A program made the translations under genes and the position numbers. 64,000 nt of DNA from a virus. Positions 19,140 through 42,755 of this stretch are shown here, piece by piece (the stretch's first letter is position 1; the number at the start of each line of letters is the position of its first letter). The notes below the pieces were generated by a model. That model was given only the letters and a program-made list of their open reading frames with translations. It did no database searches and was not told where the DNA came from. The stretch spans positions 1 to 64,000 of the IMG/VR virus record IMGVR_UViG_3300037069_001724. One strand, 5' to 3'.

Positions 19140-19681
19140 TTTCCCCTCCTCAGTCTCTTGTGTGCCATCTGGACGCACTTCGCCTGATGCTCCGCGTCGT
19201 CCAGGGCGTTGTGGTAGGTTCCTATTCTCTTGATCGCGTTGTAGTTCAGTCCCGCCATGGCGTACGCGGTGCGAGTGTCCCGCGCATTGTAGAACTTCCA
19301 CGGCGGCGACCTGCCCACGGCCCGACAGGCCGCGTCCCACAGAACGCCGTCGAAGTTGCTGCCCTGCGACCACACGAAGAAGCCGGCATTCTTGTTGAAC
19401 CAGCGCTCGAAGTCCCGAACCGCCGTGTCGAGGCTGACGGGCTTCAGTAGCAACGACTCCTGCGCCGCTGGTGACTGCTTCGCCCACCAGTCCAGCGTAC
19501 CAAGATCCATCGACAGGCCGGCCTCCGCGCTCGAGACGTGCGTGATGTTTCGGTAGAACTTCGACCCCACCGCGTCGGAGTCGGCGTCGAACATGACGGC
19601 CCCGACGCTGCGGACGATGGAGCCGACCGACGTTCCGAACGTCTCGAGATCTATCATGCAGTCGTTGCAGTCTACAACCAT
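19136..19681 (-). CDS. DnaQ-like 3'-5' exonuclease (Rv2179c-like)
   Basis: A DEDD-family exonuclease of 181 residues. Motif I is IDLETFGT (Asp10, Glu12), a middle Asp lies in GSNFDGVLWD, and the last motif is HNALDDAEHQ (His and Asp near 161-166). The pattern TLDWWAKQS and PWKFYNARDTRT matches the Rv2179c-like/exoribonuclease T family. It may trim RNA or DNA ends during replication or recombination. It overlaps the helicase gene by 10 nt. Confidence 0.8.
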   Translation of the reverse strand: MVVDCNDCMIDLETFGTSVGSIVRSVGAVMFDADSDAVGSKFYRNITHVSSAEAGLSMDLGTLDWWAKQSPAAQESLLLKPVSLDTAVRDFERWFNKNAGFFVWSQGSNFDGVLWDAACRAVGRSPPWKFYNARDTRTAYAMAGLNYNAIKRIGTYHNALDDAEHQAKCVQMAHKRLRRGK

Positions 19682-40486: not shown

Positions 40487-40914
40487 AACTTACCTCCCAG
40501 CAGTGAGACTGCTATCTCGCCGAGAACGTCGGCGGCGTAGGGCAGCGAGTTTTTAAGGGCCGGCTCGCACACCGGCCGAGGCGGAATGCGCGAGGTACCT
40601 ATCTCCTGATAGAGCGCGATCTTGCTTGGCGAGCCGACGGTGACGGCCAACTCCGCCGGCTCGAGCTCGTGGCGGTAGCTCCCGGCCATCTCGCCGGTCC
40701 GCAGCAGCGGCGACGGCACCGGCCAACCATCGCGCTCCTTGCCTAGGATCGTGGACTCGGCGAGCGGCGCCCAGCCGGGCTGATAGGTGCCGGGATACGA
40801 GGCCGCCAGCGTCGCCGCCAGCGTGCCGATCTTGTCGAGCCCGACTTCCAGCCGGGGGCGAACCATGTCCAGAGAGGCGGTGAGCACTCGCTCGAACTCC
40901 TGAAGTGTCATCAT
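40483..40914 (-). CDS. HK97 gp10-like minor tail protein
   Basis: A protein of 143 residues. LLRTGEMAGSYRHEL..VGSPSKIALYQEIGT..IPPRPVCEPAL is the known pattern of HK97 gp10/virion-morphogenesis proteins, which take part in joining tail to head or tail completion. Its place between chaperone and tape measure is a little unusual. Confidence 0.75.
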   Translation of the reverse strand: MMTLQEFERVLTASLDMVRPRLEVGLDKIGTLAATLAASYPGTYQPGWAPLAESTILGKERDGWPVPSPLLRTGEMAGSYRHELEPAELAVTVGSPSKIALYQEIGTSRIPPRPVCEPALKNSLPYAADVLGEIAVSLLGGKL

Positions 40915-41431
40915 CGACGTTCAATCCACTTCATCGTTTTCCAGTCGAACTCGCCGCCCTCGTTCTCACCACGCGCTATGAACCACGCAAGAACAAAGTC
41001 GTCGTCCGCGTCGAAGGCCACGTCGAAGGGTAGCGATCCACCGCATGCTGCGACCCGAATTTTGAAATCGGGCCGCTGACTTAGTTTTTTGCGATGTCGG
41101 TCCCACCATCAGCCGCCTTCACGTGCAGTTGTCTCAAACCTTCGCCCGCCGCCCTGATGCCCTCGAAATCCAATAATTGCATGGCAAACTCGACATCACG
41201 CTCGCTGCTCGGCATCGCAAGATCAGTCGTGTCGATCCTGCGAACGGAGGCAGCAGTGACTGCAAGATCCATCAGTGTCTGGTTACTGGCAGACTCTCCC
41301 ATCGCTCGTGTGAGTTGGTAGTAATTGAGGGCGGTGAGTTTTTGCACCTTGATGACCCGGCCGCGCGCGTCCGTGATCAGTACGGTGGTCAGAGCGGCGG
41401 TGACGGTGGCGGCAACTGTGGTATCAGTCAT
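40911..41431 (-). CDS. Tail assembly chaperone, minus-1 frameshift fusion (gpGT-like)
   Basis: Predicted 173-residue product: 115 residues of the short chaperone, a minus-1 slip on A-AAA-AAC (41084-41090), then 58 residues in the minus-1 frame ending at the TGA at 40911-40913. The extension continues KLSQRPDFKIRVAACGG and has Trp/Phe/Asp-rich FDADDDFVLAWFIARG, a style common to gpT-like extensions. The frame is open right through the stop of the short form. It lies just before the tape measure, as in lambda and P2-type frameshifted chaperones. The extension has no credible start codon of its own. Confidence 0.8.
41054..41072 (-). other. Hairpin behind the slippery site
   Basis: CCCGA/TCGGG with a 9-nt loop (an additional G-U pair possible), 11 nt after the slippery heptamer on the minus strand. 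Right position for a stimulator of frameshifting, though the stem is short. Confidence 0.4.
41081..41431 (-). CDS. Tail assembly chaperone, short form (gpG-like)
   Basis: A protein of 116 residues, ATG at 41431 with AGGACA upstream. A helical protein with ARGRVIKVQKLTALNYYQLTRAM near 22-44 and DFEGIRAAGEGLRQL near 88-102, similar in style to myophage and Mu-like tail chaperones. It stops at TAA right after the slippery sequence GCA-AAA-AAC, and most ribosomes would end here. Confidence 0.75.
   Translation of the reverse strand: MTDTTVAATVTAALTTVLITDARGRVIKVQKLTALNYYQLTRAMGESASNQTLMDLAVTAASVRRIDTTDLAMPSSERDVEFAMQLLDFEGIRAAGEGLRQLHVKAADGGTDIAKN
41084..41090 (-). promoter_or_regulatory. Programmed minus-1 frameshift slippery site
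   Basis: AAAAAAC read as A-AAA-AAC relative to the zero frame (GCA AAA AAC TAA). This fits X-XXY-YYZ exactly and is among the most efficient heptamers in bacteria. The minus-1 frame is open for 58 codons after it. Confidence 0.85.
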
Positions 41432-41465
41432 GTGTCTTGTCCTACTGTTGATGGCGCGCGGAAGT

Positions 41466-42290
41466 TCATACTCCCGGCTCTTCTTCGGTCTTGGTGGCCT
41501 CCGGCTGCGGAGTCGGTGTGGCGGCCTTCTGCTGCGACTCGAAGGTCTGCGCTCTGTTGTAGAGCTGCTGCCAGTGTTGCTCCTGCGCCGGCTCGGCGCT
41601 GCCCGGCGAGAAGAACGACTCTCCGTTGATCTTGGCGTGTCGATGAAATCGTCCGCTGGAGGCCTCCCCCTCCGCCATGCCACCGGACGAGTTGTCCGTG
41701 GCATAGTTGGAGATGTTCGACTGCCCCTTGCCGCCGGTGCCGAGTGCGGAGCCGAGGTTCTGCTCGAACATGTGACGCTTGCTGTCCGGGAAGCTGCTCG
41801 CCCAGCCGGCATAGTAGCCTCCCTCGTCCACGCCGGAGCTGCGGTGGCGTCGCACCTGCGCCTCCAGCGTCGTGCCGCGCACCGTGGCGCGGTTCATCAT
41901 GGTCTCGATGACTGCCAGATTGGCGCGCGGATCCTGGTTCTCTCCGAGCGAGATGTGAGCCATCTTCTCCTTGAGCCAAGGTTTCTGCGCCAGCTCGCTG
42001 CGGAACCGCTCGCGATCGAACGGATTGCCCTTGGAGCTGGTCGGAATGTCGCCGGTGATGTGATCCGACGTGTAGCGGTCGCCGCCGTGGTCGTCGTGAC
42101 TGTGATGCGAGTGACTGTGAGGTCCCTCGCCGTGTCCGCCGCGACCCATCTCGGAATAATTTTCGCGGTCGTTGGCCATAGCGTAGATATTGGCGTACAG
42201 GTCGGGCGAAAACTTGTCTGGCTGAGTCCCCTCCGCGAAGGTTACAACACCAACTTGTCTTCCATCAATCGTTACGACCCCGACCTGCAC
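41466..42290 (-). CDS. Virion-cluster protein, possible wall-degrading enzyme
   Basis: A protein of 274 residues with GTG start. A His/Asp/Gly-rich linker (GGHGEGPHSHSHHSHDDHGG near 51-70) separates an N-terminal segment from LKEKMAHISLGENQDPRANLAVIETMMNRATVRGTTLE (about 105-142). The latter resembles the start of small lysozyme/SleB-like hydrolase domains (GE..N..A..E..MNRA). Acidic Pro/Thr tail. It sits between tail tube and chaperone. Enzyme assignment is weak. Confidence 0.5.
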   Translation of the reverse strand: MQVGVVTIDGRQVGVVTFAEGTQPDKFSPDLYANIYAMANDRENYSEMGRGGHGEGPHSHSHHSHDDHGGDRYTSDHITGDIPTSSKGNPFDRERFRSELAQKPWLKEKMAHISLGENQDPRANLAVIETMMNRATVRGTTLEAQVRRHRSSGVDEGGYYAGWASSFPDSKRHMFEQNLGSALGTGGKGQSNISNYATDNSSGGMAEGEASSGRFHRHAKINGESFFSPGSAEPAQEQHWQQLYNRAQTFESQQKAATPTPQPEATKTEEEPGV

Positions 42291-42317: not shown

Positions 42318-42755
42318 TTAGGAGATCTGCACCTTGTCCGAGGCCATTCCATCGAGTTTCAGGGTCACCACTTTCTCGCGACTGATGTCGCCGTGGTCTG
42401 TCAGAAAGACCACGAAGTTGGTGTACTGATACCGACGGACACTGCCGTCCGGGTTGATGATGGACTCGTTCAGGAAGCCTGGCGATAGCACGTTGCCCGC
42501 GTTGAACTGCTGACTGAGTGTCACCATGAGGTCCTCCAGCGTCGACCCGATGCGAGTGACGGTGAAGTCGATCTTGAAGCCGTCCGGCACGTAGCCGAAG
42601 CGAGGCACCTGATTGTACGGCCTAGAGGAAATGTCGTGTTTCTGGGCCGTGATGCGAACATTCTGAACGTCGCCGATGTTGATCAGCTGCCCCGAGGAAC
42701 CCTCGAAGTAGCTGATCGAATAATCGACACCGACGTTCATACCATTGATGGGCAT
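42318..42755 (-). CDS. Tail tube protein
   Basis: A beta-rich protein of 145 residues, directly downstream of the sheath gene, where contractile-tail phages encode the tube. DFTVTRIGSTLEDLM and VVFLTDHGDISREKVVTLKLDGMA resemble tube proteins that stack as hexameric rings. ATG with AAGGAGAT upstream. Confidence 0.75.
   Translation of the reverse strand: MPINGMNVGVDYSISYFEGSSGQLINIGDVQNVRITAQKHDISSRPYNQVPRFGYVPDGFKIDFTVTRIGSTLEDLMVTLSQQFNAGNVLSPGFLNESIINPDGSVRRYQYTNFVVFLTDHGDISREKVVTLKLDGMASDKVQIS

Follow-up and report, generated by a model that had tools for sequence, protein, structure and literature searches.

A contractile-tailed phage with a probable programmed −1 frameshift in its tail assembly chaperone gene and a conserved RNA stem downstream of the slip site

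Does a phage tail gene that ends in a short run of adenines encode one protein or two? The question is raised by a locus in the window, the 64-kb stretch of DNA analysed here, taken from a virus record of 71,520 bases (IMG/VR IMGVR_UViG_3300037069_001724). On the minus strand, a 116-codon chaperone ORF with the C-terminus ...DIAKN ends at a TAA stop (41083–41081) that immediately follows the heptamer A_AAA_AAC (Table 1). The −1 frame is open from stop to stop (41108–40911) and continues for 57 sense codons past the heptamer to a stop at 40913–40911, a TGA that shares bases with the next gene's ATG at 40914. The predicted fusion would be 116 + 57 = 173 residues long. The first-pass annotation had proposed a programmed −1 frameshift of the gpG/gpGT or E/E′ kind at the gene end GCA-AAA-AAC-TAA, with the −1 frame open for 58 codons to 40911, reaching the next gene start and yielding a 173-residue fusion. 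These readings of the DNA were borne out, the 58 codons being 57 sense codons and the stop. Its placement of the chaperone directly before the tape measure gene was incorrect: a 143-aa tail-completion-like gene intervenes, and the tape measure gene is two genes downstream.

Table 1. Features of the chaperone locus in the window
Feature	Position	Strand	Basis
Short tail assembly chaperone, frame 0, 116 aa, G/E-like	41081..41431	-	phrog_20383 and fold
Slippery heptamer A_AAA_AAC, TAA immediately after	41084..41090	-	same codon in relatives
−1 frame extension domain, 57 codons and stop, T/E′-like	40911..41084	-	
Stimulatory hairpin (putative), 9 bp, 9-nt loop, 7 nt past heptamer	41050..41076	-	folding
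Tail completion / Neck1-like protein, 143 aa	40483..40914	-	phrog_26 E 2.1e-7
Tail tape measure protein, 587 aa	38723..40486	-	phrog_28 E 9e-15; PF10145 E 5.8e-11
Conserved 145-aa protein, candidate tail tube subunit	42318..42755	-	phrog_12993 (no function listed)

Taken by itself, the pattern in the window is not beyond chance. AAAAAAC occurs twice against 1.50 expected, and a broader signature (an ORF of at least 90 codons with a heptamer close to its end and 57 or more open −1 codons) was found at four sites, compared with a mean of 1.2 and a maximum of 5 in 20 Markov sequences. Other window sites with this broader signature include 57965 and 5558. GGGAAAA at 19145 was considered as a second frameshift candidate; it ends a 206-codon ORF that is exonuclease-like by eye, and the −1 frame is open for 92 codons (19145–18861, minus strand). 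This candidate was rejected because the next ORF, which occupies the −1 frame, starts at an ATG of its own across the stop (ATGA), so that ordinary translational coupling explains the site. In contrast to the window alone, the comparison of the chaperone locus with its relatives is clearly beyond chance.

Relatives were recruited with three queries: the 145-aa protein encoded upstream brought in 34 viral loci and a single Bradyrhizobium lablabi prophage, the neighbouring GpU-like protein seven loci, and the extension 202 viral relatives, 80 of which were taken in, 75 of them new. The extension was present in 35 of the 43 sources from the first searches and in all 75 new loci; the other eight sources either end within 594 nt of the end of the tube gene or begin after the chaperone. 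The resulting set comprised 110 loci and 76 distinct 66-nt sites, and distinct sites were counted since several loci derive from a contig that was retrieved twice. In 109 of the 110 loci the frame-0 ORF immediately preceding the extension is a chaperone homologue, the sole exception (L053) being truncated. None of the 110 had a chaperone homologue in either of the other two frames, and none was fused in frame.

A canonical heptamer was present at the same codon in 72 of the 76 distinct sites (54 AAAAAAC, 7 AAAAAAA, 6 GGGAAAC and 5 AAAAAAG). Three of the four non-canonical sites have GGGGGAA (L096:1818, L110:2420 and L114:3024), a motif of annotated phage frameshifts in the SEA-PHAGES set according to the excerpt available of PMC10885494. 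The fourth, L099:489, has no recognisable heptamer at the slip codon, yet the frame break persists. Identity to the window's extension drops to about 30% among the relatives, with the heptamer kept. The frame-0 stop is TAA, TAG or TGA and lies 0–39 nt past the heptamer; since both its type and its distance vary and the heptamer stays in place, the slip site, not the stop, is what is conserved. The heptamer's two lysine codons, which are the first two of the extension, are AAA AAA in 22 of 22 distinct sequences; the remaining lysines of the same extensions comprise 14 AAA and 40 AAG, and those of 19 window genes 31 and 122. Among 146 sampled genomes from the genus to which the Bradyrhizobium locus belongs, five carried the extension, at six places, all six with AAAAAAC (these loci are outside the 76-site count). 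One genome of that genus (G084) carries two different chaperone–extension units, L123 and L125, on the same contig.

The first-pass annotation also described a small hairpin 11 nt after the heptamer. A hairpin is indeed predicted, with the arms 41076–41068 and 41058–41050; at 9 bp and 7 nt from the heptamer, it is neither as small nor as distant as described. The 53-nt segment folds at −20.6 kcal/mol; its shuffled versions averaged −13.18 (z −2.92), and one in 200 of them folded as well. The canonical −1 PRF signal is complete in the window (heptamer, 7-nt spacer and 9-bp stem), with the canonical spacer range given as 5–9 nt in the excerpted text of PMC7618472. The hairpin was found in all six window-clade sequences, i.e. 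the window and its five nearest relatives (z −2.5 to −4.9 against shuffles), with the stem in a different register in L038. Pair statistics for these six sequences are weak, 31 of 500 shuffles reaching the paired fraction and 43 of 500 the covariation score.

The sister clade provided a larger sample, with 69 distinct sequences aligned gap-free (the six window-clade sequences and L054 (PFD filter) were omitted). In this clade an 8-bp stem pairs columns 15–22 with columns 54–61, starting 7 nt past the heptamer. Its cells were paired in 87.1% of cases compared with 78.4% when shuffled, and 0 of 500 shuffles matched either the paired fraction or the covariation score. Pairing was only 52–54% when the partner was slid by one column. 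Several pair types occur at the same columns: CG 33, GC 14, UA 6 and AU 1 at pair 19–57, and GC 21, GU 19, AU 16 and CG 9 at pair 16–60. The register was found by scanning pairing at constant i+j in the same data as the test, and the shuffles, the slid controls and thinning served as checks on this data-chosen register; after thinning to 45, 33 and 22 sequences, 0 of 5000 shuffles were as good in each case. RNAalifold did not return the stem from the 69-sequence alignment. In both clades the 5′ arm occupies the same columns, starting 7 nt past the heptamer, and its partners differ. In the window clade the partner is 9 nt away, giving a compact hairpin; in the sister clade the distance is 31 nt and there is an inner stem. 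On balance, we favour the view that this is an undescribed tail chaperone family in which frameshifting requires a dedicated, dual-coding RNA stimulator. If true, the stimulator was re-paired in evolution with its spacing and the heptamer kept, within codons that also specify the extension.

Together, the conserved frame break, heptamer and extension and the covarying stem point to a gpG/gpGT-type (P2 E/E′-type) frameshift with an RNA stimulator. From this comparison of sequences, it is highly probable that this contractile-tailed phage uses programmed −1 ribosomal frameshifting in its tail assembly chaperone gene. The original proposal of such a frameshift is supported by conservation across the 76 distinct sites, and also by the fixed spacing of the stem, the proximity of the tape measure gene and the predicted fold of the chaperone, with its modest structure matches.

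Slippage of RNA polymerase on the A run, with some mRNA encoding the fusion in frame, would be served by the six consecutive As (seven in 7 of the 76 distinct sites). Runs of about nine are usual for transcriptional slippage, which counts against it here, and the GGGAAAC (six distinct) or GGGGGAA (three distinct) found at the same codon contain no long homopolymer. The constant 7-nt spacing of the stem fits ribosomal slippage instead, and we consider polymerase slippage very unlikely. It is also highly improbable that ribosomes reinitiate after the chaperone stop and read the −1 ORF as a small gene in its own right. The reading frames do overlap closely and the downstream gene start likewise overlaps a stop, but between the stop that opens the window's −1 frame and a point 20 codons beyond the slip there is no ATG, GTG or TTG, and the extension lacks its own start codon ahead of its conserved core. 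Moreover, homology of the extension begins at the heptamer's KK codons, and reinitiation has no need for a conserved heptamer. Finally, a sequencing error or decayed gene (two ORFs that are really one frame, or a dead extension) is barely conceivable, for although homopolymer runs invite indel errors, the same break recurs in 109 of 110 loci from many assemblies with no in-frame version, and substitutions in the extension fall mostly on third codon positions of the −1 frame (13/9/27 for the window compared with L002).

In the preferred reading, programmed ribosomal frameshifting, most ribosomes would terminate at the TAA after AAC and produce the 116-aa chaperone. A minority would pause at the hairpin 7 nt downstream while Lys and Asn tRNAs occupy A_AAA_AAC, move one base backwards onto AAA_AAA, continue beyond the stop and produce the 173-aa fusion. 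By analogy with lambda gpG/gpGT, we infer that the short form may coat the tape measure protein and that the C-terminal domain of the rarer fusion may recruit tail tube subunits. The ratio of short form to fusion, which would be set by the rate of slipping, may matter for tail assembly. How phages set this chaperone ratio becomes testable by simple reporters.

The window chaperone matched phrog_20383 (E 2.8e-16), as did 21 of 22 members, and no Pfam family matched the 22 members at a meaningful E-value. As a lone query, the short chaperone had no match in IMG/VR or the phage records, and hmmsearch of PDB sequences with the chaperone profile returned two chance-level rows only. The best two VIA-align matches of the chaperone AF2 model (pLDDT 85.3) were the HK97 chaperone 2ob9 (Z 5.3) and YqbN, 3klu (Z 4.6), the latter presumably a phage-type chaperone; these matches are modest, at 4–8% identity, and a Z of less than 8 may reflect no more than a shared arrangement. 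Tail assembly chaperones recur among the matches to this model in a viral model library. We propose a tail assembly chaperone function for PHROG 20383, which is listed without one.

The extension was modelled by AF2 as a small helical domain (mean pLDDT 91.1) and had no meaningful match in the PDB (best E 2.4). No Pfam or PHROGs family was found for its 22 members beyond single chance-level rows, ten further members gave no clear Pfam or PHROGs match (one weak at 0.0087), and a search of 50,697 phage records with L066 and L032 as queries gave none. A widespread phage chaperone family would gain its missing half, a domain of 57–61 residues with no Pfam or PHROGs model.

Lambda gpG/gpGT uses a −1 frameshift at G_GGA_AAG to make a short and a rarer extended form (PMC5009743 and PMC7618472, each in excerpt). 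The window gene resembles it in having one start for a short and a −1 extended form (predicted here), a slip near the end of the first ORF and a position near the tape measure gene. It differs in its heptamer, A_AAA_AAC, in the conserved downstream stem, in having no sequence match to any Pfam family and in the extra gene before the tape measure gene in the window. The P2 pair E/E+E′ arises by −1 shifting at TTTTTTG and has products of 91 and 142 aa (PMC3091744, in excerpt), compared with 116 and a predicted 173 aa here, and in both cases contractile-tail genes lie downstream (here Baseplate_J and weakly GpU-like). Unlike in P2, a conserved stem follows the slip site, and no sequence homology was found; the window chaperone would work like E/E′ but is not filed in the P2 E/E′ sequence family (Pfam). 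The available part of PMC3091744 reports no downstream structure in P2, KS5, KS14 and KL3 and such structure only in rare cases. By comparison of relatives, the stem would prove that an RNA stimulator accompanies a frameshift site in a tail chaperone gene, a setting in which that excerpt calls structures rare.

A chaperone cluster similar to an HK97 protein showed a 6–7% shift in experiments, according to the accessible portion of PMC3711429. The combination of an A6 heptamer and a downstream stem-loop is like that of E. coli dnaX (A_AAA_AAG with a 3′ stem-loop; PMC5009743 and PMC7618472, each in excerpt), which is a different gene with a different purpose and a Lys instead of an Asn codon in the A site. 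According to PMC5009743 (in excerpt), A_AAA_AAC shifts less readily than A_AAA_AAG in E. coli, which counts against a shift here. The literature searched gave no description of this chaperone family or of Bradyrhizobium prophage chaperone frameshifts. The device is known, and the family, the extension domain and the stimulator appear undescribed within the searches made.

The gene neighbourhood is that of a tail module. In the window, the chaperone is located between the candidate tube gene and the tape measure gene, where the 145-aa protein is probably the tail tube subunit, judging by its position and conservation (73% identity in L004 and L008). A contractile tail is indicated by the Baseplate_J protein and the weakly GpU-like protein downstream. 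A tape measure match was found downstream in 7 of 10 further loci tested, with none in L055, L110 and L008. The tape measure protein had no match in the phage records, and a 388-aa protein had none in IMG/VR. Gene order is swapped between clades, with the chaperone and extension moving as a pair: they precede a tail-hydrolase-like gene in L008 (981–2647) and follow it in L004 and the window (40911–42290). The gene upstream of the chaperone in the window (41466–42290, minus strand) has only its first ~55 residues in common with L004 (38%). L004:917–1717 and L008:1580–2647 continue past these common residues, where the window version diverges; we take their continuation, by motif, to be a lytic transglycosylase (no family match). 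It looks as if the enzymatic part had been exchanged behind a common anchor.

The expectation that annotation misses the extension held in one annotated record, Aquitalea NZ_CP029540.1. In this record the chaperone is entered as a hypothetical protein that terminates at the 0-frame stop. The next gene follows right after the extension, and the gene table, known to be incomplete, has no entry for the extension itself. The same Aquitalea element (L120:4894–5712) has a BRO family gene between the post-chaperone gene and the next large gene.
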